37,783 nt of DNA. Source: Cyanobacteria bacterium RYN_339 (GTDB taxonomy: Bacteria > Cyanobacteriota > Sericytochromatia > S15B-MN24 > JAQBPE01). The stretch is taken from positions 1 to 37,783 of the forward strand of contig JAQBPE010000362.1 of NCBI GenBank assembly GCA_028287685.1, read 5' to 3'. The position numbers and the translations under genes were made by a program. Shown here piece by piece: positions 4,046-37,783 of this stretch. How positions within the stretch are numbered: position 1 is the stretch's first letter; each line of letters begins with the position of its first letter. The notes under the pieces are model-generated. The model was not told the origin of the DNA. It did no database searches and saw only the letters and a program-made list of their open reading frames with translations.

Positions 4046-5293
4046 ATGACTTACGCACGCTCGAAAGCTTTCCTTCCCATCGCCCTGACGCTCGCACTAG
4101 GCGGCTGCGAGGTCATCGACGCCGGCGTGCTAACGCCGCTACCGCCGGCCTCCGGCGCGGTGACCACCACCGGCAAGCCGGCCGCACCCGTCATCAAGCC
4201 CCGCGGCGGCGCGATCGGCACGCCGACCGGGGCGACGGTGGAGGCGCGCGTGCTCGACTTGATCAACCGCACACGGGCGGTGGCCGGCCTCACGCCGGTG
4301 ACCTACGACGCGCGCGCCACCAAACTGTGCATGGCCCACGCGAACTACCTGATGCTCAACGCCAACTCGCCGGCGTTGGCCGGCTTCAGCGCCCACAAGG
4401 AAGACCCCTCGTTGCCGGGTTATGACCCCGAGTGGGCCAACCTGAACCTGGGCAACGACGTGCACTTCATCGAGCCCCTGCCCGCGGTCGACGACTGGGT
4501 GGCATCGCTCTACCACCGCACGCAGATGCTGGACGCCAACCTCGTGCAGATCGGCTTCGGCTACGCCGGCGACCGGGCCAAGGACAACGCCGCCGCCGTG
4601 CTGGCGTTCAAGCAAGGCAGCGGGCCCGAGGCCGAGGTCGCCTACCCGGCCGACGGCCAGACGGAGGTGCCGCTGAACTTCTACGGCGAGTTCCCCAACC
4701 CCATCCCGGCAGGCCATACCGGCCCGGTCGGCTACCCCCTCACGCTCCAGGAGCCGAGCAGTGCGAAGATGACGGGCTTCAAAGGCTCGCTAACGGATGA
4801 TGCCGGCCACGACGTGCCCTGCTACTACTCCGACAAGGAGCATCAGGCCAGCTCGCTCTACGACCAGGGCAACGTGGTGTGCCTGCTGCCCCAGCTGCCC
4901 CTGGACCTCGCCACCACCTACCACGTGAAGGTCAGCGGCACGCTGGACGGCCAGTCCATCACGCGGACCTGGACGTTCACCTCCCGGCCTGCCCCCGCCG
5001 CGATCGAGGCGTCGGACCACGCCGCCGTCGCCGCCCAGGCCGGTCAACTGGCTACGATCGAGGGCAAGGTGCGCTCCGGCGGCAAGCTGGATGACGGCAC
5101 GATCTACTTCAACTTCAGCGCCGATTTCGACCCATCGATCTTCCTGAAGCCCGAGGTCTGGGCCCAGACCGGCCTGGGCGACCCGGGTGCGCTCGTCGGC
5201 AAACGCATCCGGGCCATCGGCCCGCTGGTGAAGGGCGGCTCCTACGCCACCATGGACGTGCCGACGGCCAAGTGGTTCACGGCGCTCAAGTAG
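4046..5293 (+). CDS. CAP (SCP/PR1)-domain lipoprotein
   Basis: Lipobox LGGC; CAP-like 'LDLINRTRAVAGLTPVTYDARATKLCMAHANYL...YHRTQMLDANLVQIGFGYA'. Confidence 0.75.
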   Translation: MTYARSKAFLPIALTLALGGCEVIDAGVLTPLPPASGAVTTTGKPAAPVIKPRGGAIGTPTGATVEARVLDLINRTRAVAGLTPVTYDARATKLCMAHANYLMLNANSPALAGFSAHKEDPSLPGYDPEWANLNLGNDVHFIEPLPAVDDWVASLYHRTQMLDANLVQIGFGYAGDRAKDNAAAVLAFKQGSGPEAEVAYPADGQTEVPLNFYGEFPNPIPAGHTGPVGYPLTLQEPSSAKMTGFKGSLTDDAGHDVPCYYSDKEHQASSLYDQGNVVCLLPQLPLDLATTYHVKVSGTLDGQSITRTWTFTSRPAPAAIEASDHAAVAAQAGQLATIEGKVRSGGKLDDGTIYFNFSADFDPSIFLKPEVWAQTGLGDPGALVGKRIRAIGPLVKGGSYATMDVPTAKWFTALK

Positions 5294-6137
5294 CCTCGCC
5301 GAGCAACGCGGCCAACTCGGCCAGCACCACCTCCGCCGCCGGGCTCGGCTGGATCCCCGCGCGGCGCACCACGTAGAAGGGATTCGCCACGTCGACGGGC
5401 GGTTCGGCCACGATCGCGAGCGTGCCCAGCCGGATGCGCTCCCGCACCGCGAGCTCCGGCACGAAGGCCGCCCCGACGCCTGCCTCGCACAGGTGGATCG
5501 CCACCTCCAGCAGGTCGACCTCGGCGCTGACCTTGCGCCGGAACCGCCCGTCCGGCCAGCCGTCCAGTGTTGCTGGGGGCACCACATACTTGAGCGCGTC
5601 CCAGGTCGTAAAGGCTTGCGGCAGCGCCACGATGACGGAGGGGTTCATGAGCCCGCCCTCCCAGGCGAGGTCCTGCCGCTGCGGCCGCGCGAACAGGACG
5701 CCGAGGTCCACCTCGCCAGCCGCGACCCGCTCTTCTACCTGATCATGCGACATCGACAGGAGCCGCGGGCGGATGCGCGGATGCGCGACGACCAGATTTG
5801 CCAGCAGCCGCGGCAGCAAGTAGTTGTGCACGAAGGCGACGCCCGCGATGCTGATCGGCCCGACTGGGACGCGGGAGCGATGGTCGGCGATCGCCTGCTC
5901 GATGTTCTCCAGCCCGGCCATGATCCCCGGCACCTGGTCCAGCAGCGTTTGCCCGGCGGGCGTCAGCCTACGCAGTCGCTGGTCTCGTTCGAAGAGCTTG
6001 ACCTTGTAGTGCGCCTCCAGGCTGGCCACCGCCTTGCTCACGGCCTGGGGCGTCACATGCACGCGCTCGGCGGCCGCCTGGAACGACCCCGTCGCGGCAG
6101 CGGCCAGGAAGTAACGCAGGGCGTCGAGGTTCACCAT
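5286..6137 (-). CDS. LysR-family transcriptional regulator
   Basis: N-terminal HTH 'LDALRYFLAAAATGSFQAAAERVHVTPQAVSKAVASLEAHYKVKLFERDQRLRRLTPAG'. Confidence 0.9.
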   Translation of the reverse strand: MVNLDALRYFLAAAATGSFQAAAERVHVTPQAVSKAVASLEAHYKVKLFERDQRLRRLTPAGQTLLDQVPGIMAGLENIEQAIADHRSRVPVGPISIAGVAFVHNYLLPRLLANLVVAHPRIRPRLLSMSHDQVEERVAAGEVDLGVLFARPQRQDLAWEGGLMNPSVIVALPQAFTTWDALKYVVPPATLDGWPDGRFRRKVSAEVDLLEVAIHLCEAGVGAAFVPELAVRERIRLGTLAIVAEPPVDVANPFYVVRRAGIQPSPAAEVVLAELAALLGEAT

Positions 6138-6253
6138 CGCGCCATTATAGCGGCAGGTCGCAACCAATGGTTGTGAAACATGGAGAAAACCCTTCGTTGG
6201 ACGCGGGAACTCCCGCCCGCTTAGGATGGAACCAAGTACAAAGGAGCCCGTCC

Positions 6254-6697
6254 ATGTCTCTCGCCCGTTTCGCAGCCCCGCTGGGCCTGGCGCTCATCGT
6301 TTCGGCCTGCCAGGCACACCCCGTAACGGCCGCCCCCGTCCGGACCGCCATGCAAGTCGGTGTCCGGCAGGCGCCCGCCAGCGTCTCTGGCGACTGGGTG
6401 GTGCACCTCTACGTGGGCAAGCAGGCCTTCGCCGACCAGCTCCACCTCGTGGCCGACGCCAGCGGCGCGTTGAGCGGCACGTTGACGGTCACCGGCGTCT
6501 TCACCGCCCCGCTGGAAAAGGTGCGCCTGGTGGACGACGTACTCTCCTTCGAGATCCTCGCGCCCGAAGGCGCCAAGCCCTTCCGGGTCTTCTACCGGGG
6601 CCAGGTGGAGCCCAAGGCCACCACCATGACCGGTTTCGCCACCCTGGCCGACGGCTCGCTCATGGGCGGCTACGTGGCCCAGAAGCAGGCCCAGTAA
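6254..6697 (+). CDS. putative lipoprotein, hypothetical
   Basis: Signal peptide/lipobox LIVSAC; RBS AAGGAG at 6241. Confidence 0.7.
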   Translation: MSLARFAAPLGLALIVSACQAHPVTAAPVRTAMQVGVRQAPASVSGDWVVHLYVGKQAFADQLHLVADASGALSGTLTVTGVFTAPLEKVRLVDDVLSFEILAPEGAKPFRVFYRGQVEPKATTMTGFATLADGSLMGGYVAQKQAQ

Positions 6698-6706
6698 TGA
6701 GCCCAC

Positions 6707-7462
6707 CTGTTCGACAACCACCGCTCCATCCGCAAGTACCGCCCCGATCCGATTCCGGAGGACGTGCTCGATCGGATCCTGGAGGGCGCCATCCGCGGCA
6801 CGTCGTCGTCCGGCAACATGCAGGCCTTCTCGATCATCGTGACGACGGACCCCGCGCTCAAGCAGGCGCTTTACCCGTTGCACTTCGAGCAGGACATGGT
6901 GCTGGAAGCGCCCGCCTTCGTCACCTTCTGCGCCGATTTCCACCGCATGCGCCGGTGGTTGGAAGCGTCCGACGCGCCGGACAACTTCGACAACCTCATG
7001 AGCTTCATGATCGGGGCGATCGACGCCATCCTGGTGGCCCAGAGCGCGGCGCTGGCAGCCGAGCAAGAGGGCCTGGGGCTGTGCTTCTTGGGCACCACCC
7101 TGGCCAACTGTGCGGCCATTTCGGAGGTGCTGCAGCTGCCTGCCAACGTGGTGCCGGTCGTCGGGTTCAGCCTGGGCTACGCGGCGGAAGCCCCCGGCCC
7201 GCGCGATCGCCTGCCCACCCATGGGCTGGTCCACCGGAACGTTTACCAGGCACCCGACGTGCGGGAAATCTACGAAGCGCGCCAATCGCGCGGTTGGGCC
7301 CGCTACATGCAGGACGACCAGCTGCGAGCGATGGTGGAGGCCTCCGGCGTCCAAAACCTGGCCCAGCTCTATACCACGGTGAAGTACACGCGCGAATCGC
7401 ACCAGGCCTACTCCGCGACCATCCTGGACTGCCTGGAGCGGCAGAACTTCCTGGCGGGCTGA
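6707..7462 (+). CDS. nitroreductase family protein (5' end ambiguous, possible frameshift)
   Basis: In-frame 'LFDNHRSIRKYRPDPIPEDVLDRILEGAIRGTSSSGNMQAF' plus 232-aa ORF; no normal start codon in this frame before the conserved N-terminus. Confidence 0.8.
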   Translation: MFDNHRSIRKYRPDPIPEDVLDRILEGAIRGTSSSGNMQAFSIIVTTDPALKQALYPLHFEQDMVLEAPAFVTFCADFHRMRRWLEASDAPDNFDNLMSFMIGAIDAILVAQSAALAAEQEGLGLCFLGTTLANCAAISEVLQLPANVVPVVGFSLGYAAEAPGPRDRLPTHGLVHRNVYQAPDVREIYEARQSRGWARYMQDDQLRAMVEASGVQNLAQLYTTVKYTRESHQAYSATILDCLERQNFLAG

Positions 7463-28632: not shown

Positions 28633-29610
28633 ATGATCAAGGTTCGCCAGCTCACCAAGCACTTCCGGGTCCACACCAAAGAGCCCGGCCTCAAGGGGTC
28701 GATCCAGTCGCTGTTCCGCCGTCAGTGGCTCGACAAGGTTGCGCTGGACGACGTGTCACTGGACGTCGGGCCCGGCGAAATCTTGGGCCTGATCGGGAGC
28801 AACGGCGCCGGCAAGACCACCCTGGTCAAGACACTCACCGGCATTCTCCACCCCACCTCGGGCACGGTCGAGGTGCTGGGCCGGGTGCCCTGGGAGCGCA
28901 GCGACGACTTCCGCCGCCAAATCGCGCTGATCATGGGCCAGAAGGCCCAGCTCTGGTGGGACCTGCCAGCCTCCGACTGCTTCCTGCTGCTGCGCGAAAT
29001 CTACCAGATCCCCAAGGCCCAGTTCGTGGAGACGCTGGACTACCTGGTGGAGCACCTCCAGGTGCGCGACCAGCTCAACATCCAGATCCGTCGCCTGAGC
29101 CTGGGCGAGCGCATGAAGATGGAGCTGATTGCCGCCCTCTTGCACCGCCCCAAGGTCGTCTACCTGGACGAGCCGACCATCGGCCTGGACCTCGGCGCCC
29201 AGCGCGCCATCCGCGAGTTCCTGCTGCAGTACCGCGCCGAGCACCAGCCAGCCATGATCCTTACCTCGCACTACATGGAGGACATCCAGAGCCTCTGCAA
29301 GCGCATCGTGATCATGACCCAGGGCCGGGTCGTCTACGACGGCTCGCTGGAGCGCGTCGTGAACGACTACGCCACCCACCGCGTGATCCTGGCCGGCCTC
29401 AAGGGTGACCCGGGGACGGTTGCCTTCCACCCCGAGCTGGGCGAGGTCGTCGCCGCTACCCCCGAGCAGATCCGCGTGCGCGTGCCGCGCGCCAAGACGG
29501 CTGACGCCGCCTCCTTCTTGCTCGCGCACTACCCCGTCGCCGATATCACCATCGAAGAAGAAGACATCAGCGCCATCATCGAGAAGTTGCAACGGAAGCC
29601 CGTCGCATGA
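28633..29610 (+). CDS. ABC transporter ATP-binding protein (COG4586-like)
   Basis: Walker A GLIGSNGAGKTTLVK; signature LSLGERMKMEL; Walker B VVYLDEPTIGLD. Confidence 0.93.
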   Translation: MIKVRQLTKHFRVHTKEPGLKGSIQSLFRRQWLDKVALDDVSLDVGPGEILGLIGSNGAGKTTLVKTLTGILHPTSGTVEVLGRVPWERSDDFRRQIALIMGQKAQLWWDLPASDCFLLLREIYQIPKAQFVETLDYLVEHLQVRDQLNIQIRRLSLGERMKMELIAALLHRPKVVYLDEPTIGLDLGAQRAIREFLLQYRAEHQPAMILTSHYMEDIQSLCKRIVIMTQGRVVYDGSLERVVNDYATHRVILAGLKGDPGTVAFHPELGEVVAATPEQIRVRVPRAKTADAASFLLAHYPVADITIEEEDISAIIEKLQRKPVA

Positions 29611-30428
29611 TCGCGCGGCGGCTGGCCTGGGCGCCCCACGTCTACTCGATCGAGCTGCGCAAGCTGCTCTCCTACCGGCTCGACTTCTGGACGCAGTTCC
29701 TGGGCGCGCTGTTCGTGGAACTGCTGGTCGCCTACTGCCTCTGGAAGGCCATCTTCGCCCAGGTCGGCACCGACCGCATCGCGGGCTACGGCCTGGGCGC
29801 GATGATGCTCTACTACCTCGTGGTCTCGATCCTCGACCGAATCAACCGCGGCCCCGAGTGGCCCGGGATGATCTCGCGCGAGATCTACGAGGGCGGCCTC
29901 ACGCGCTACATGGTCTTCCCCGTGCCGTTCTTGGGTTTCAAGTACCTCACGCTGCTCGCGTACCTGAGCATCTGCCTCGTGCAACTCGCGGCCGGCGTGC
30001 TCGCCTTCGCGCTGCTGATCGGCCTTCCGGCCGAAATCCATATCACGCCGCTCTCGGCGCTGCAGTTCCTGGGCGCCATCCTGCTCGCGAACTACCTGTA
30101 CTTCGTCATGAGCGCCATCTTCGAGATGGTCGCGTTCTGGGCCGAGAGCGCCTGGAGCCTTGCCGTCACCCTGCGCATGACGGTGTCGCTCCTGGGCGGC
30201 ACCCTGATCCCGCTCGCGCTCTTCCCGGCCTGGTCGCAGCCCGTGCTGGCCTGGCTGCCGTTCCCCTGCATCATCTCGTTCCCGGCCCGCAGCCTGCTCG
30301 GCGAGCTCGACATGGCCGCCTGGGCCGGTTGGGCGGCCGTGACGCTGGGCTGGGCCGGCTTCTTCACGGTACTGGCAGGCCTGGTCTGGAAGGCCGGCTC
30401 GCGCGAGTACTCGGCCGTGGGGCACTAG
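29607..30428 (+). CDS. ABC-2 family permease (COG4587-like)
   Basis: Multi-TM protein 'YSIELRKLLSYRLDFWTQFLGALFVELLVAYCLWKAIF'; ATGA overlap with ATPase. Confidence 0.87.
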   Translation: MIARRLAWAPHVYSIELRKLLSYRLDFWTQFLGALFVELLVAYCLWKAIFAQVGTDRIAGYGLGAMMLYYLVVSILDRINRGPEWPGMISREIYEGGLTRYMVFPVPFLGFKYLTLLAYLSICLVQLAAGVLAFALLIGLPAEIHITPLSALQFLGAILLANYLYFVMSAIFEMVAFWAESAWSLAVTLRMTVSLLGGTLIPLALFPAWSQPVLAWLPFPCIISFPARSLLGELDMAAWAGWAAVTLGWAGFFTVLAGLVWKAGSREYSAVGH

Positions 30429-30431
30429 GCG

Positions 30432-31220
30432 ATGTGGCGCTACCTGCGGCTCTACGCCCATTTCATCCGCTTCTCGCTCGGCCGCGCCATGACCTACCGG
30501 GTCGACTTCTTCTTTATGATCGTCATGGATATCTTCTACTACGCGTTCAACTTCGCGTTCTACAAGATCCTCTACCTCAAGACCACGACGCTTGCGGGCT
30601 GGAACGAGCCGCAGATCATGGTCTTCATCGCTTGCTACCTGGTGGTGGACGCGCTCAACATGACGCTCTTCTCCAACAACGCCATCTGGCTGCCCATCTT
30701 CATCCAGCGCGGCGACCTGGACTACTACCTGACGCGCCCCGTCTCGAGCCTGTTCTTCCTCAGCGTGCGAGACTTCGCTGCCAACTCGTGCATCGCGCTC
30801 TTCATGGCCTTCTGCATCCTCGGCTGGACGCTGCACCAGTACCCCGAGCCCCTGGGGTTCTGGAAGGTCGTCATGCTGGTCGGGCTGCTTCTCAACGGCG
30901 CCTTCCTCTACCACCTGGTCCACCTGGCGATGCTCATCCCCGTCTTCTGGAGCCACTCCGGCGGCGGGCTGCCCCAGCTCTTCATGTCGCTGAACAAGAC
31001 CATGGAGCGACCCGACCGCGTCTTCCAGGGGTGGACGCGCGTCCTGTTCACCATGCTCATCCCCTTCTCCGTGATCGCCTCGTTCCCCGCCCGCCTGGTG
31101 CTCGAGCGGTTCGACTGGCCGATCTTTGCGCAGTTGGTGGGCGTGACCCTCCTATTTACAATTTTTATCAAGTACTTCTGGGAGAAGGGCCTGAAGGCTT
31201 ATTCTTCGGCATCGTCCTGA
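30432..31220 (+). CDS. ABC-2 family permease (COG3694 / PF06182-like)
   Basis: 'FIRFSLGRAMTYRVDFFFMIVMDIFYYAFNFAFYKILY', 'GDLDYYLTRPVSSLFFLSVRDF'. Confidence 0.87.
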   Translation: MWRYLRLYAHFIRFSLGRAMTYRVDFFFMIVMDIFYYAFNFAFYKILYLKTTTLAGWNEPQIMVFIACYLVVDALNMTLFSNNAIWLPIFIQRGDLDYYLTRPVSSLFFLSVRDFAANSCIALFMAFCILGWTLHQYPEPLGFWKVVMLVGLLLNGAFLYHLVHLAMLIPVFWSHSGGGLPQLFMSLNKTMERPDRVFQGWTRVLFTMLIPFSVIASFPARLVLERFDWPIFAQLVGVTLLFTIFIKYFWEKGLKAYSSASS

Positions 31221-31226
31221 GTTAAG

Positions 31227-32111
31227 ATGTACGAAGCAGGCCGGGGCAAGTTGCGCCCTGCCGACTCGATCACTCATAGGAAGCGTTTGTCTTACGCCGC
31301 ATTTCTCAAGGAGCGCGTGAAGTACGCCCTCGACTGCAAGCCCGAGCGCAGCCCGTCGCTGCGCCAGTCGGCGGATTTCCAGACCCTTTGCCGCGACGGC
31401 ATCGTGATGATCCCGGGCTTCCTCGCCCCCGAGCAGGTCGAGGCCTACGTGCGGCAGATCAAGGCCGACACGCCCATTTTCGACGGCCAGGTGGAGGTTT
31501 CGGACATCGGGTCGTGCATCCTCAACGATGCCGACCAGGTCGGGGACTTCCAGGCCTTCTTCGAGAGCCCGCTGATCCAGGCGATGGCCCGCGCCTACGT
31601 CAGCGCCGACGTCGAGACTCCGCGCAAGCAGATCATGCTCAAGTTGAAGCCGGGCGAAGAGGCCTACAGCGACTTCTACCACATCGACCACTGGGAGCAT
31701 AAGCTACGGGCGTTCTTGCTGCTGCAAGACGTCTCGGCCGACAACGCGCCCCTGGTGTACCTCAAGGGCAGCCACCGCCTCAAGCCCTGGCGGCTGCGCA
31801 AGGAGTTCGAGATCTTCCACCACTTCCGGCCGGCCCCGAAGGACGTCCGCTACGCGACCCCGCACACCACGGAGGAGTCGAAGTGGAGCGGCATGTGCCT
31901 GGCGCCGGAGGTCTACAACATCGGCCGAGCGCACGGCTACGAGGAGTACATCGCAACGGGCACGGCCGGGTCGCTGCTGTTGTTCGACGCGAAGGGCCTC
32001 CACCACTCGACCGCCCTCAAGCAGGGCACTCGCCTGCTGCTGGCCATGCACCTCGACCGCCGCAGCAAGGGCTACTTCAAGCGCGTCATGGACTACGAAG
32101 GCCAGGGCTGA
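31227..32111 (+). CDS. phytanoyl-CoA dioxygenase (PhyH)-like Fe(II)/2-oxoglutarate oxygenase
   Basis: 'FYHIDHWEHKLRAFLLLQDVSADNAPLVYLKGSHRL', 'GSLLLFDAKGLHHSTALKQGTRLLLAMH' (HxD...H and Arg). Confidence 0.87.
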   Translation: MYEAGRGKLRPADSITHRKRLSYAAFLKERVKYALDCKPERSPSLRQSADFQTLCRDGIVMIPGFLAPEQVEAYVRQIKADTPIFDGQVEVSDIGSCILNDADQVGDFQAFFESPLIQAMARAYVSADVETPRKQIMLKLKPGEEAYSDFYHIDHWEHKLRAFLLLQDVSADNAPLVYLKGSHRLKPWRLRKEFEIFHHFRPAPKDVRYATPHTTEESKWSGMCLAPEVYNIGRAHGYEEYIATGTAGSLLLFDAKGLHHSTALKQGTRLLLAMHLDRRSKGYFKRVMDYEGQG

Positions 32112-32116
32112 CCAGC

Positions 32117-33016
32117 GTGCCGCCCGTCTTCCGCCCCCTGACCCTCGGCGACCGCGACCTCGTGACGTCTTACGTGCGCGCGGCGGGCCTGGCGTCGTGC
32201 ATGTACAACTTCGCCCAGATTTATGCCAACCAGCCGCTTTACGCCTACGAGCTGGCCGAGCACGACGGCCACCTGTTCATCTTCAACGCGTTCCGCGGCA
32301 AGCACTACTTCCCGCTGGGCGCGGCCGCCACCCCCGAAAACCTCCTGAATTGGTCGCGCCAGCTGGGGGGCGTGGCGTTCCACTATGCGCCTGGTGCGGC
32401 TGCCGATGGCTTCGAGGTCAGCTCGGACGAGGGCGATTTCGAGTACATCTACGCCACCCGCGCGCTCGCGGAGCTGAGCGACAGCGCCTTCCGCAAGAAG
32501 CGCAACCTCGTGCTGGCTTTCCAGAAGGTGCACCCGGACGCCTCCGCCCGCGCACTCACCGCGCAAGACGTCGGGGCCTGCCTCGCCCTGATGCAGGATT
32601 GGGGCACGAGCCGCCGGCAGCCGGACGAGGCGGATGCGTTCTTCAACGAGTGCATCGCCATCGAGGCGACTGGCATGCGTTACGCCCTCGACCACTTCGA
32701 GGCCCTGCAGCTCGATGCGTTCGGGCTGTTTGTGGGCGATCGCCTCGTCGCCTTCGACGTCTTCAGCGGCCCCGTCGACAGCCTCATCCACGTCACCTAC
32801 GAGAAGTACGACGTGACGGTCCCGAACTGCGTGCCGATTCTGCGCAAGCTCGCGGCGCGCTACCTGCTCGACCAGGGCTACGAGGCCTTCAACTTCGGCC
32901 GCGACATCGGCCTGCCCGGCCTGCGCAAGAGCAAGCGGGCCTACCACCCGCAGCGCATGCTGCGCACGCACACGCTGACCCCGCTTTCCGTGGCCCGCCT
33001 GGAAGTGAACGTATGA
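32117..33016 (+). CDS. DUF2156 / LPG_synthase_C-like GNAT-fold protein, paralogue A
   Basis: GTG start; 'SCMYNFAQIYANQPLYAYELAEHDGHLFIFNAFRGKHYFPLGAA', 'RKKRNLVLAFQKVHPD', 'ACLALMQDW', 'GLRKSKRAYHPQRM'. Confidence 0.78.
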   Translation: MPPVFRPLTLGDRDLVTSYVRAAGLASCMYNFAQIYANQPLYAYELAEHDGHLFIFNAFRGKHYFPLGAAATPENLLNWSRQLGGVAFHYAPGAAADGFEVSSDEGDFEYIYATRALAELSDSAFRKKRNLVLAFQKVHPDASARALTAQDVGACLALMQDWGTSRRQPDEADAFFNECIAIEATGMRYALDHFEALQLDAFGLFVGDRLVAFDVFSGPVDSLIHVTYEKYDVTVPNCVPILRKLAARYLLDQGYEAFNFGRDIGLPGLRKSKRAYHPQRMLRTHTLTPLSVARLEVNV

Positions 33017-33921
33017 CTTCAACCCTGGACCGCGGCGCCGTCACCGGCCTCGGCATGGCTCCCGTCACCTTCGAAGACCGCGAGCTCGTCACGCGCTACA
33101 CGCGGGACTTCGACCTGCAGTCGTGCATGTACAACTTCCTGCACATCTTCACCCGCACCCGCAGCTACCGCTTCCTGCGCCGCGAAGAGGGTGGCCGGCT
33201 CTACCTCTACAACAGCCACCTCGACAAGCTGTACTACCCCCTGGGCGCGCCCATGAGCGCCGCGGAGCTGGCCCGGACCGCGCGGCAGCTCGGCGCCTCC
33301 GCGATCCACTTCGCGCCGGAGCGCTACATCGACGCCACCCCGGACCTCGCGGACCACTTCGAGGTGACCACGCTGCCCGCCGAAGACGAGTACATCTATG
33401 ACAACCAGGCGATCGCCGAGATGGCGGGTGGCCTGTACAGCCGCAAGCGCGAGTCCGTCTCCAAGTTCAAGCGCACCTACCCCGACCACGCCTTCCGGGT
33501 GCTCGGCGAGGCGGACGCAGACGATTGCCTGGCGCTCACCGAGACCTGGCGGCAACAAAAGGGCAGCAACGCCAGCATCGACTACGAGTTCGAGTCGATC
33601 CAGCTGGCCCTGTCGCAGTTCGACGCCCTGGGCCTTAGCGGGCTCGGGCTCTACGTGGAAGGTCGCCTCGTTGCCTACGACATCTTCAGCGGCGGCGTCG
33701 GCACGCTCGCGAGCTGCAGCTACGAGAAGTACGACCGCGACATCCGCGACTGCGTGCCGGCCTTGCGCCAGGCCATCGGCAAGCACCTGCTGGAGGCGGG
33801 CTTCACCCACATGAACTTCGCCCGCGATATCGACGATGACGGCTTGCGGGCCAGCAAATCCTCCTACCACCCCGCGTACAAGCTTCGGCAGTTCATCCTG
33901 ACCTTGAAGGCCCTCCCATGA
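33013..33921 (+). CDS. DUF2156 / LPG_synthase_C-like GNAT-fold protein, paralogue B
   Basis: 'SCMYNFLHIFTRTRSYRFLRREEGGRLYLYNSHLDKLYYPLGAP', 'SRKRESVSKFKRTYPDH', 'GLRASKSSYHPAYKLR'; ATGA overlaps on both sides. Confidence 0.78.
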   Translation: MTSTLDRGAVTGLGMAPVTFEDRELVTRYTRDFDLQSCMYNFLHIFTRTRSYRFLRREEGGRLYLYNSHLDKLYYPLGAPMSAAELARTARQLGASAIHFAPERYIDATPDLADHFEVTTLPAEDEYIYDNQAIAEMAGGLYSRKRESVSKFKRTYPDHAFRVLGEADADDCLALTETWRQQKGSNASIDYEFESIQLALSQFDALGLSGLGLYVEGRLVAYDIFSGGVGTLASCSYEKYDRDIRDCVPALRQAIGKHLLEAGFTHMNFARDIDDDGLRASKSSYHPAYKLRQFILTLKALP

Positions 33922-35021
33922 CCTCTCCCAAGCTTCACATCGGCATCGTCTGCGGCGGGCGCAGCGAGGTGTTCGCGCTGTCCGTGAAGGGTGGCGTCGA
34001 CATCGCCGCCGCGGTCGACCCGTCCCGGTACAAGGTGTCCTTCTTCGTGCTGGATCAGGACCACCGCTGGTTCTTGAGCCAGGCCGGGGCCTTCGCGGGG
34101 CCCCGCGGCCTGGAGGCCTTCGCGTTCGATGCGGCGCACATGACCGAGGTCATGATCGGCCCGCGGGGCTCGGTCATCGACAAGTGCACGGGGGAGCAGC
34201 TCGCCACCCTCGACGTGGTGTTCCCGACCCTCTATGGCCTGTACGGCGAGGACGGCAAGCTGCAGGGCATGCTGGAGATGCTAGATCTCCCCTATGTGGG
34301 CGCCGGCGTGACCGCGTCGGCCATCTGCATGGACAAGGACATCGCCAAGCGGCTGGTGGCGAACGCGGGCGTGGCGACGGCGGAGTCGATCTTGCTGCGG
34401 AGCGCCAGCCAGGTGACGTTTGACGAGGCCAGCGAACAGCTTGGGGTACCCTTCTTCGTGAAACCTTGTCGGATGGGCTCGTCGGTCGGCATCAGCAAGG
34501 TGCGCACGGCCGAGGAGTACCGGGCGGCGATCGCCGAAGCGTTCCGCTACGGACGCAAGGTCATGTTGGAGCGCGCATCCTTCGGCCGCGAAATCCGTAC
34601 GGCCATCATCGGCAACGAGCACCCGCAGGTGGCGATGACGATTGGCGAGGTGCCACTTGGTGGCGGCCTGGACTTCTACGACTACCACGCCAAGCTCAAC
34701 AACCCGATCAACCGCATCCCTGCCTCGTTGGACGAGCAGGTGGCCGAGCACGTGCGCGAGCTGTCGCGGCGGGTATACCAGGCGCTGGAGATCGAGGGGA
34801 TGGCGCGGATCGATTGGTTCCTGGAAGCGGACGGGACCGTGTTGTTTGGCGAGGCGAATACCCTGCCTTGTTTCTCCGCGGGATCGACGTTCCGGGAGTT
34901 GTGGGCGCATTCGGGCGTGGAGAATTCGGGCTTGATCGGGCAGTTGGTGGCGTTGGCGCAGGCGCGGTTCAAGCGGAACCGGGAGTTTGCCTACTCGGGC
35001 CTTTTGGCGCCGGTAAGTTGA
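33918..35021 (+). CDS. D-Ala-D-Ala ligase-like ATP-grasp enzyme (divergent)
   Basis: 'LYGEDGKLQGMLEMLDLPYVGAGVTASAICMDKDIAKRL', 'PFFVKPCRMGSSVGISKV', 'FYDYHAKL', 'GEANTLPCFSAGST'. Confidence 0.9.
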   Translation: MTSPKLHIGIVCGGRSEVFALSVKGGVDIAAAVDPSRYKVSFFVLDQDHRWFLSQAGAFAGPRGLEAFAFDAAHMTEVMIGPRGSVIDKCTGEQLATLDVVFPTLYGLYGEDGKLQGMLEMLDLPYVGAGVTASAICMDKDIAKRLVANAGVATAESILLRSASQVTFDEASEQLGVPFFVKPCRMGSSVGISKVRTAEEYRAAIAEAFRYGRKVMLERASFGREIRTAIIGNEHPQVAMTIGEVPLGGGLDFYDYHAKLNNPINRIPASLDEQVAEHVRELSRRVYQALEIEGMARIDWFLEADGTVLFGEANTLPCFSAGSTFRELWAHSGVENSGLIGQLVALAQARFKRNREFAYSGLLAPVS

Positions 35022-35414
35022 GCGGTTTTTCGACAGCAAGGTAGCTGGTGGATCACGACGAGCCGGCCGCCAAAAAGCGCAAAACCAGAGCATCATGAGC
35101 CGATTTAATGCCACCAACTGTTCAACTACCGCTATAGGCCAGACGAGCGCTGGAGGGCAGGTACAAAAAGAAACTCCCCCCGGAAACGACGGATCTCTTC
35201 TAGAGGGATGGTCTTTATCGGAGCGACGGGAGCGCTTTCCCAGCGTTTCCCCCCACTAGATTGCAAGACGCTGGGCACCGTTCGCTCTGGCACTGCCAGG
35301 CGTTTGGCGGCGGACAATCAAACGCGACACTCGACGACAAACAAAACTTCCCTTTGACCGACCGGCCTGAAAGCCGCTCGGCGAGGTGTCATGCTCCTCC
35401 TTCAGGGAGGCCGC

Positions 35415-36899
35415 ATGAAGAAAGACGCCGAGATCAAGCTTTTGAATCGAGAACGAAAGAAGGGCCTCACGCAGAAACTCGCCGCGGCCAAGGCCGGGAT
35501 GAGCGCGCGCACCGCCCGTAAATACGAGCGTGGCGGGTTTCTGCCATCGGAAATGCCCCGTCCTCCCAAGCTCCGCACGCGGCCGGATCCCTTTGCCGAC
35601 GTCTGGTCGGGCATCGCGGAACTGCTAGCCGGCGACGATGCACTCCAGGCGAAAACCCTGTTCGACCTGCTGGTCGAGCGGCACCCAGGGCGCTTCGAGC
35701 CCGGCCAAGTGCGGACACTCCAGCGCCGGGTCGAGCACTGGCGCGCGACCGAGGGGCCGGGGCGGTTGGTCATGTTCGAGCAGATCCACCAGCCCGGCAA
35801 CCTTGCCCAGAGCGACTTCACGGACATGGGCGAGCTGGCCATCACGATTGCCGGCGAGCTCTTCGTCCACAAGGTCTTCCACATGGTCCTGACCTTCTCC
35901 AACGTCGAAGCGGTCAATGTCTGCTTCTCGGAGTCGTTCGAGGCCCTGTCCGACGGTATCCAGGCAGCGTTCTGGCAGTTCGGCGGCGTGCCGGCGATCC
36001 ATCGGACCGACAACCTGTCGGCAGCGGTGCATCGCCTGGAACGCGACGGCCGCAAGGGCTACACCGGTTCCTACCAGGCGCTCATGAACCACTACGGCTG
36101 CATCCCCGACAGCAACTACCCGGGCGAGGCCCACCAGAATGGCGACGTCGAATCTTCCAACGGCAAGCTGAAGAGCGCCCTGGATCAGACGCTTCGGTTG
36201 CGCGGTAGCCGCGACTTCGAGACCCGTGCGGCCTACGAGGCGTGGCTGCTCGACCAAGTTCGTCGCCGCAACGACACACGGCAGACCCGTTTTGCCGTGG
36301 AGCGCGAAGCGCTAAACGCGCTGCCCACGGCGTCGCTCGCCCAACCCAAGATCGTCACCGTGACCGTCACCCGCTTCAGCACCCTTCTGGTCCTGGGCAA
36401 TACCTACTCCGTGCCGTCCCGCCTCATCGGGAGCCGCTTACAGGTACGCCTCCGTGCGGAAACGTTGGACGTCTACCGAGGCTCCCAGCAGGTGGCCTTC
36501 ATCCCCCGGCTCATCGGGCGTGGCGGCCACCGCATCGATTACCGGCACGTCATCTGGTCGCTGGTGCGTAAACCACGTGCGTTCGCTGCCTGGCGATTCC
36601 GGGAGGAGCTGTTCCCCCTGCTCGTGTTCCGGCGCGCCTACGACGCGCTGGTCGAGGCCAGGACGCCGTCCAGTGCCGACCAGGAGTACCTGCGTATCCT
36701 GCTCCTCGCCGCGAGTGGGTCCGAAGCCGACGTGGCCATCGCCCTCGAGATCATGTTGGAGCAAAAGGTGCCCATCGGCAGCTCGGCGGTGCGCGACCTG
36801 GTACGGGAACCCGGGATGCCAGCCGTTCCCCACGTCACCACGCCCATCGTCGACCTCACCGTCTACGACCGCCTGCTCGCCCCGCGGTGCGCCAATTGA
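35415..36899 (+). CDS. istA: IS21 family transposase IstA
   Basis: N-terminal HTH (KLAAAKAGMSARTARKYERGG); rve-like core 'QSDFTDMG', 'IHRTDNLSAA', 'GEAHQNGDVESSNGKLK'; RBS AGGGAGG. Confidence 0.9.
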   Translation: MKKDAEIKLLNRERKKGLTQKLAAAKAGMSARTARKYERGGFLPSEMPRPPKLRTRPDPFADVWSGIAELLAGDDALQAKTLFDLLVERHPGRFEPGQVRTLQRRVEHWRATEGPGRLVMFEQIHQPGNLAQSDFTDMGELAITIAGELFVHKVFHMVLTFSNVEAVNVCFSESFEALSDGIQAAFWQFGGVPAIHRTDNLSAAVHRLERDGRKGYTGSYQALMNHYGCIPDSNYPGEAHQNGDVESSNGKLKSALDQTLRLRGSRDFETRAAYEAWLLDQVRRRNDTRQTRFAVEREALNALPTASLAQPKIVTVTVTRFSTLLVLGNTYSVPSRLIGSRLQVRLRAETLDVYRGSQQVAFIPRLIGRGGHRIDYRHVIWSLVRKPRAFAAWRFREELFPLLVFRRAYDALVEARTPSSADQEYLRILLLAASGSEADVAIALEIMLEQKVPIGSSAVRDLVREPGMPAVPHVTTPIVDLTVYDRLLAPRCAN

Positions 36900-37684
36900 G
36901 CGACCGTTCGGCCGAGCTGGAGCGGCTTCTCCACGGCCTTCGCCTGGGCACCATGGCGCGCCTCTTCTCCGAAACGGCGGTGCGCGCCGCGCGCGAGGGC
37001 CTCACCCACGAGGAGTTCCTCTACGAGCTTGTCTACCGCGAGGCCGAAGCCAAGGACGAACGCCGTGTCGAGCGGATGCTCGCCCAATCGTTTCTCCCGC
37101 GCGAGAAGAACTTCGAGACCCTCGACATCACGTGCTACCCCCTCGCCATCCGCCAGCAGCTCGCCCAACTGCGCCGCGGCGCCTTCCTCGACGACGCGGT
37201 TAACGTCGTAGCGGTCGGCCAGCCCGGCACCGGCAAGAGCCATCTGGCGGCGGCTATTGGCATCGAGCTGGCCCGACAGGGCCGCAGCGTGCTTTGGACG
37301 CCGACCTTCGCGCTGGTCCAGACCTTGCTCGCGGCCAAGCGCGACCTCAAGTTACCCCGCGAGCTGGCGCGGCTGCAGCGTTTCGAATGCCTCGTGCTCG
37401 ACGACATCGGCTACGTCCAGCAGGATCGCGACGAGATGGAGGTGCTCTTCACCCTGCTGGCGAACCGCTACGAAACACGTAGCACCATCATCACGACCAA
37501 TCTGGTGTTCTCGGAATGGACCCGCATCTTCAAGGACCCCATGACTACCCAGGCCGCGATTGATCGGGTCGTCCACCATTCCGTCATCATCGACCTGGCC
37601 GGCGTGACCAGCTACAGGGTCAAGGCCGCAGAAGACGACCAGAAGAAGAAACCCAAGGACCCCCCACCCGACCCGCCGGATTAG
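36887..37684 (+). CDS. istB: IS21-like helper ATPase IstB
   Basis: 'NVVAVGQPGTGKSHLAAAIG' Walker A, 'FECLVLDDIGYVQQDRDEMEVLFTLLANRYETRSTIITTNLVFSEW'; start GTG 36887 or TTG 36896. Confidence 0.92.
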   Translation: MRQLSDRSAELERLLHGLRLGTMARLFSETAVRAAREGLTHEEFLYELVYREAEAKDERRVERMLAQSFLPREKNFETLDITCYPLAIRQQLAQLRRGAFLDDAVNVVAVGQPGTGKSHLAAAIGIELARQGRSVLWTPTFALVQTLLAAKRDLKLPRELARLQRFECLVLDDIGYVQQDRDEMEVLFTLLANRYETRSTIITTNLVFSEWTRIFKDPMTTQAAIDRVVHHSVIIDLAGVTSYRVKAAEDDQKKKPKDPPPDPPD

Positions 37685-37744
37685 ACCGCCCCATAAGGGT
37701 TCTAGACCGATGCCTGTACGGCGTAGCAAGTAACATAATGTGGT

Positions 37745-37776
37745 ATCGAGGGAGTATGGCTTCATACTCCCTCGAT
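37745..37776. repeat. perfect 14-bp inverted repeat with 4-nt loop
   Basis: ATCGAGGGAGTATG-GCTT-CATACTCCCTCGAT, 60 nt after the istB stop. Confidence 0.85.
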
Positions 37777-37783
37777 TTGCGTG

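Follow-up and report, generated by a model that had tools for sequence, protein, structure and literature searches.

The window (the whole stretch of DNA that was analysed, 37,783 nucleotides) carries on its forward strand an operon of seven genes, located at 28633-35021, in which the gene of a Ddl-type ligase, P0001, comes last. Junctions between consecutive genes measure, in order, -4, +3, +6, +5, -4 and -4 bp. The genes of the operon and a mobile element downstream of it are as follows:

28633..29610, + strand: ABC exporter ATPase (P0005; PF00005, 7.7e-26; the nearest NCBIfam model is drrA, below its cut-off)
29607..30428, + strand: ABC-2 permease 1 (P0006; PF06182, ABC2_membrane_6, 9.1e-21), with a 4-bp overlap with the ATPase gene
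30432..31220, + strand: ABC-2 permease 2 (P0007; PF06182, ABC2_membrane_6, 3.5e-35)
31227..32111, + strand: PhyH-family Fe(II)/2-oxoglutarate dioxygenase (P0004; Pfam PhyH, 8.7e-8, and motif)
32117..33016, + strand: GNAT-fold transferase a (P0002; PF09924 by Pfam), a tandem paralogue of P0003 with a putative GTG start
33013..33921, + strand: GNAT-fold transferase b (P0003; PF09924, 2e-20), with a 4-bp ATGA overlap with the ligase gene
33918..35021, + strand: DdlA-type ATP-grasp ligase with a remodelled D-Ala pocket (P0001, 367 aa; Pfam, PDB match, AlphaFold2, Foldseek)
35391..37684, + strand: istA/istB-like pair, IS21-like as read by eye, downstream of the ligase gene and outside the operon

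The first-pass annotation of this DNA had read the ligase gene correctly and had treated it alone, overlooking the operon setting. Genes for adenylation, thiolation or any other core biosynthetic step are absent from the operon, as are VanH/VanX-like genes. A promoter and terminator scan of the locus gave no signal above that of shuffled sequences. Since the contig ends after the istA/istB-like pair, the 3′ end of the operon is uncertain and a further gene is possible. The last bases of the contig (window positions 37696-37783) recur at the ends of three other contigs (C148, C376 and C343) with overlaps of 82-87 bp, and it was probably this repeat that broke the assembly. No IS copies carrying the remainder of the operon were found at other contig ends, where the 82-87 bp overlaps were all that was seen.

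The frame of P0001 runs from ATG to TGA with no internal stops, and the GC3 of the gene (0.89) is similar to that of its neighbours. Pfam identified both Ddl domains (Dala_Dala_lig_C, 9e-50; Dala_Dala_lig_N, 1.3e-20), with scores of 169.5 and 74.6 bits, respectively, each above the curated cut-off. Two Ddl subfamily cut-offs of NCBIfam are passed, and the TIGR01205 score is 264.8 against a cut-off of 245.65. P0001 lies below the NCBIfam Ddl equivalog cut-offs listed (297.1 vs 457, 258.7 vs 449, 210.6 vs 472 and others) and far below the cut-off for all Van models listed there. The nearest solved structures, as determined by phmmer against the PDB, are those of DdlA (Klebsiella 7u56, E 2.6e-76), and identity to E. 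coli DdlA is 39%. An AlphaFold2 model built from 42 sequences has a mean pLDDT of 91.1, with moderate confidence (mean pLDDT 66) in the omega-loop block; its top Foldseek matches are all DdlA, at TM 0.83-0.86. By sequence and modelled fold, P0001 is a full-length DdlA-type ATP-grasp ligase.

P0001 was aligned with E. coli DdlB (NC_000913.3), DdlA, one Van-type ligase and another 100 Ddl proteins. The comparison was widened to 117 other Ddl-family proteins (the Glu15 column being scored in 114) from Bacillota, Pseudomonadota, Cyanobacteriota, Chloroflexota, Lentisphaerota, Myxococcota, Actinomycetota and viral contigs. The residue register obtained by phmmer to the DdlA structures is identical to that of the Ddl alignment. 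The following pocket residues, all on the + strand, were assigned by alignment and checked at the codon level:

33969..33971 (GTG): Val18 at the position of Glu15, the donor ammonium binder; Glu in 114/114 other Ddl proteins
33990..33992: Gly25 at the invariant Ser22 position
34233..34235 (TAT): Tyr106 at the His63 position; His in 117/117 other Ddl proteins
34479..34481 (TCG): Ser188, corresponding to Ser150, kept
34695..34697 (CTC): Leu260 at the Tyr216 position in the omega loop
34869..34871 (TGT): Cys318 at the oxyanion-loop Gly276 position
34887..34889: Thr324 at the Leu282 position (Leu/Met282)

As can be seen, the replacements that had been read by eye at Glu15, at His63 (LYG in place of LHG) and at Tyr216 (FYDYHAKL) are borne out by codons and alignment alike, and none of the lost residues is restored at its place either in the Ddl set or in a profile alignment to MysD. 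A one-residue shift of the N-terminal motif, by which Glu17 would stand in for Glu15, was considered and rejected, the ungapped register being favoured in Ddl alignments. Within the widened set, P0001 alone has Val at Glu15 together with Tyr at His63, and Tyr216 is present in 115 of the 117 other proteins. The one Van-type ligase compared has both Glu15 and His63. Two further changes are Asp174 to Gly212 and Pro284 to Arg326; like those at Ser22, Gly276 and Leu/Met282, they had not been named in the first-pass annotation.

The first-pass annotation had also stated that the ATP-grasp/Mg and Ser150 motifs remain, and this holds: all seven ATP/Mg residues (Lys97, Lys144, Glu180, Glu187, Asp257, Glu270 and Asn272) are kept, as are Ser150, Arg255, Ser281 and Lys215, which precedes Leu260. 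From the Glu15-Ser150-Tyr216 triad that it had named as orienting D-Ala, Ser150 is retained and the other two residues are changed. P0001 differs in 9 of 56 columns conserved at ≥95%. Changes fall in four of the eight substrate-site columns compared with 5/48 elsewhere (Fisher one-sided p = 0.017, in a small test whose column choice was guided by the finding itself), and in 0/7 ATP/Mg columns. In published structures, Glu15 and Arg255 are associated with the bound phosphorylated ligand (PMC5717164), the counterparts of His63, Arg255 and Asn272 are assigned to catalysis, and those of Tyr216, Gly276, Ser281 and Leu282 are assigned to substrate (PMC6899670; residue correspondence mapped in this analysis). 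Substitution at Tyr216 shifts the second-substrate choice of Ddl (PMC7691350).

A second ddl, which the first-pass annotation had proposed to look for, is present in the host genome (7.0 Mb in 506 contigs; the assembly is 95% complete). It lies on contig C497 (11600-12620), its named pocket residues are intact, and it is vertically inherited: its product is 65% identical to a Ddl on contig C96 of a same-family genome (G001), and the two contigs share six collinear DNA blocks. The C497 protein, 28% identical to P0001, carries an unusual ATP-loop motif, KGATQGSTLG, where KPxxxGSSVG is expected. Because the contig of the window and C497 share a tetranucleotide signature (r = 0.91), we take them to come from one organism; the possibility that the window is a contaminating contig was rejected, since its tetranucleotide profile matches five other host contigs (r = 0.87-0.93). 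With a second ddl that has an intact pocket and is syntenic with a same-family relative, P0001 would be free of a housekeeping role. Judged from these sequences, it is the C497 ddl that supplies D-Ala-D-Ala for the wall, and P0001 is not the housekeeping copy. In a Ddl tree, P0001 falls in the DdlA-type part on the longest branch (2.91 vs a median of 0.45); the placement of such a long branch is unsure, and we therefore name no specific lineage as donor. Genes of the psbA family, present in photosynthetic members of the phylum, were found in 0/18 genomes searched from the host's own class, from which we infer that the host, of the class Sericytochromatia, is a non-photosynthetic member of Cyanobacteriota.

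The two transferases upstream of the ligase gene are 40-43% identical to each other and are the only PF09924 proteins in the host genome. The AlphaFold2 model of P0003 (pLDDT 92.9) has a double-GNAT fold, which P0002 has by homology. The closest structure to P0003 is 2hqy (DUF2156), a protein without assigned function, followed by MprF C-terminal/catalytic domains, FemX and Sbb17/Sba18; identity to MprF, FemX and Sbb17-type proteins is 12-18%. The two-GNAT-domain architecture is the likeness of the pair to MprF and FemX. Sbb17/Sba18 are aminoacyl-tRNA-dependent peptide synthases, and VlmA, DhpH, DhpK, PacB and Orf11 are GNAT-fold aminoacyl-tRNA enzymes of natural-product pathways (PMC12945691). 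The tandem transferase pair together with a dioxygenase also recalls the dehydrophos pathway. In the dioxygenase P0004, the HxD...H metal triad is present by motif (HID at residues 152-154 and a distal His259/260).

A search for relatives of P0001 among 85,488 species by exact 8-mer seeding, by which distant ones can be missed, retrieved no close relatives, and neither there nor in the flanks checked was a sibling cluster found near P0001 homologues. P0003 has matches in 3/294 Cyanobacteriota genomes (its own included), in 12 of 237 genomes of a Myxococcota-centred set and in one of 399 of a Chloroflexota-centred set; the neighbourhoods of seven matching genomes were inspected, and the cluster was present in 0/7. 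Matches to P0004 in the 294 Cyanobacteriota and 399 Chloroflexota-centred genomes were all weak. The association of the operon genes rests on one genome, and the absence of sibling operons refers to samples and is not proof. A role in anti-phage defence was considered and rejected, PADLOC having given only generic ABC/ATPase matches.

Plasmid and viral contigs carry Ddl proteins whose first-D-Ala pocket is intact where covered, or unrelated DUF2156 genes, with the exception of viral contig L177 (IMGVR_UViG_2866048730_000001). At 5006-7453 of this contig, genes for a diaminopimelate epimerase, a Ddl-like ligase and a C39-like peptidase lie in a row; in the ligase, Tyr216 is replaced by Leu and no GGxSxE motif can be recognised, and judged by its sequence it, too, seems to be a repurposed Ddl. 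In plasmids of Rhizobium and Agrobacterium (L180:3350-5065 and L181:3335-5068), a C39-family peptidase gene is located directly upstream of an intact-pocket Ddl, the same pairing as in the viral contig but in reversed gene order.

Compared with DdlA of Salmonella (3q1k/3i12) and Klebsiella (7u56), P0001 has full-length homology, the same fold and the ATP/Mg residues, together with Arg255, Lys215, Ser150 and Ser281, but differs in having Val for Glu15, Gly for Ser22, Tyr for His63, Leu for Tyr216, Cys for Gly276 and Thr for Leu/Met282, and in being a non-housekeeping copy placed in an export/transferase operon. VanA, VanG and LmDdl2, ligases forming D-Ala-D-Lac or D-Ala-D-Ser, are likewise derived from Ddl and altered in the omega loop at Tyr216; P0001 differs from them in lacking adjoining VanH/VanX and from the Van-type ligase compared in having neither Glu15 nor His63. 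MysD, also homologous to Ddl, joins amino acids to a core that is not itself an amino acid, and it has a PhyH partner, MysH (PMC11378024, PMC11983340). In the three MysD proteins that we aligned (L137, L141 and L143), His63 is replaced by Phe and Tyr216 by Leu; the identity of the first is confirmed by mysA-, mysB- and mysC-like neighbours, and L143 is assigned through its similarity to L137. In photosynthetic Cyanobacteriota, mysA-B-C-D clusters were observed at L137:4881-9994 and L143:5101-8741. P0001 and MysD have in common a lost D-Ala pocket, an aromatic residue in place of His63, the Tyr216 to Leu change and a PhyH-family partner. They differ in that MysD lacks Arg255, Asn272 and Ser150, all kept in P0001, and in that MysD activates C1 of the mycosporine ring, whereas P0001 retains acyl-phosphate machinery; at 25% identity to MysD, P0001 is far closer to Ddl. 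By this comparison, MysD is the closest functional precedent for P0001.

Since the substrate pocket has changed and the ATP site has not, we read P0001 as a repurposed ligase. The proposal of the first-pass annotation, an active ligase with substrates other than D-Ala plus D-Ala, withstood both checks that it had named as able to refute it, the alignment and the search for another ddl, and is retained as the best reading in view of the pocket changes and the second ddl, with activity and substrates both predicted. With a probability of about 0.6, we propose that P0001 is a neofunctionalised carboxylate-amine ligase which, with the transferases, the PhyH enzyme and the ABC-2 exporter, makes an exported small peptide-like metabolite, the C497 ddl supplying D-Ala-D-Ala for the wall. 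Since Arg255, Ser150 and the ATP/Mg set are kept, P0001 would most likely phosphorylate a carboxylate with ATP/Mg and couple it to an amine. The acceptor probably keeps a free carboxylate, as the Lys215/Ser281 clamp is retained. The donor would lack the α-ammonium or have it elsewhere, because Glu15 and His63, which recognise this group, are lost; an N-acylated or otherwise modified acid, and not D-Ala, would fit. The two translationally coupled GNAT-fold transferases would take part, possibly using tRNA, as their fold suggests; the PhyH dioxygenase would oxidise an intermediate, and the exporter would send out the product. Points that weigh against this reading are the restriction of the gene association to one genome, the lack of an assigned function for 2hqy, the absence of core biosynthetic genes from the operon and the moderate confidence of the model in the omega loop. 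More tentatively, two aminoacyl-tRNA-dependent transferases might make products that P0001 extends or caps with a donor lacking a free α-ammonium, in a compact and so far unmatched type of operon of a non-photosynthetic host.

The homology of P0001 to Ddl and Van, its substitution at Tyr216, where changes shift second-substrate choice (PMC7691350), and the match of P0003 to FemX would also suit a variant of cell-wall synthesis. The ligase would then form D-Ala-D-X or some other modified stem end, and the FemX-like transferases would act on the peptidoglycan bridge, much as happens in intrinsic glycopeptide resistance. This is unlikely: the first-D-Ala binders that the Van-type ligase compared keeps are lost in P0001, VanH/VanX-like genes are absent among the operon genes, and a PhyH dioxygenase and a three-gene exporter fit poorly. 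Slightly less probable still is a modification of lipids or the cell surface, in which MprF-like transferases would load amino acids on a lipid, the ABC-2 system would flip it and the ligase would prepare the head group. The closest named Pfam family of the transferases is the phosphatidylglycerol lysyltransferase C-terminal domain, and MprF cryo-EM structures are among the fold matches of P0003, but P0002 and P0003 have no fused membrane part, and we know of no aminoacyl-phosphatidylglycerol system that includes either a DdlA-type ligase or a PhyH enzyme.

We consider it quite improbable that P0001 has remained a D-Ala-D-Ala ligase through a local rearrangement of its pocket. Its identity to E. 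coli DdlA and the presence of Glu17 one residue ahead of the lost Glu, which it could replace, are consistent with this, but His63, Tyr216, Gly276 and Ser22 are altered along with Glu15, and the genome has the intact-pocket C497 ddl. Even less credence is given to a decaying or non-catalytic copy, which the long branch and the nine changed columns might suggest: the frame is open with the GC3 of its neighbours, every ATP/Mg residue is kept, the fold is predicted with high confidence and the gene ends a tightly coupled operon. Finally, a mycosporine ligase of the MysD type, serving a UV screen, would explain the shared His63 and Tyr216 losses and the PhyH neighbour (cf. MysH). It is largely refuted by the low identity to MysD, by the retention of Arg255, Asn272 and Ser150 and by the presence of a single DHQ-synthase-family gene in the genome (157 bits vs 71 for MysA), presumably aroB; a second such gene that could serve as mysA of a mysA-mysB-mysC set was not found in the 95%-complete assembly.

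The neofunctionalised-ligase reading, partly supported, presents a known kind of enzyme in a variant form, confirming the earlier observation on the pocket and extending its interpretation. To our knowledge, the combination of an exporter, a PhyH enzyme, two GNAT-fold transferases and a Ddl matches no described pathway. A 2009 survey of amidoligases (Iyer et al.) reportedly predicted numerous ATP-grasp/GNAT contexts, among which comparable arrangements may figure. The specialised metabolism of the host lineage is, as far as we know, little explored, and the operon suggests a small, NRPS-free way of making a peptide-like metabolite. Ddl is a drug target, and its first-D-Ala pocket is invariant across a wide bacterial set. 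P0001, being a close homologue with a rebuilt pocket and an intact catalytic core, thus offers a natural experiment on the evolution of ATP-grasp specificity. Since similar losses are seen in MysD, replacement of His63 and Tyr216 may have occurred repeatedly as Ddl enzymes left cell-wall work.
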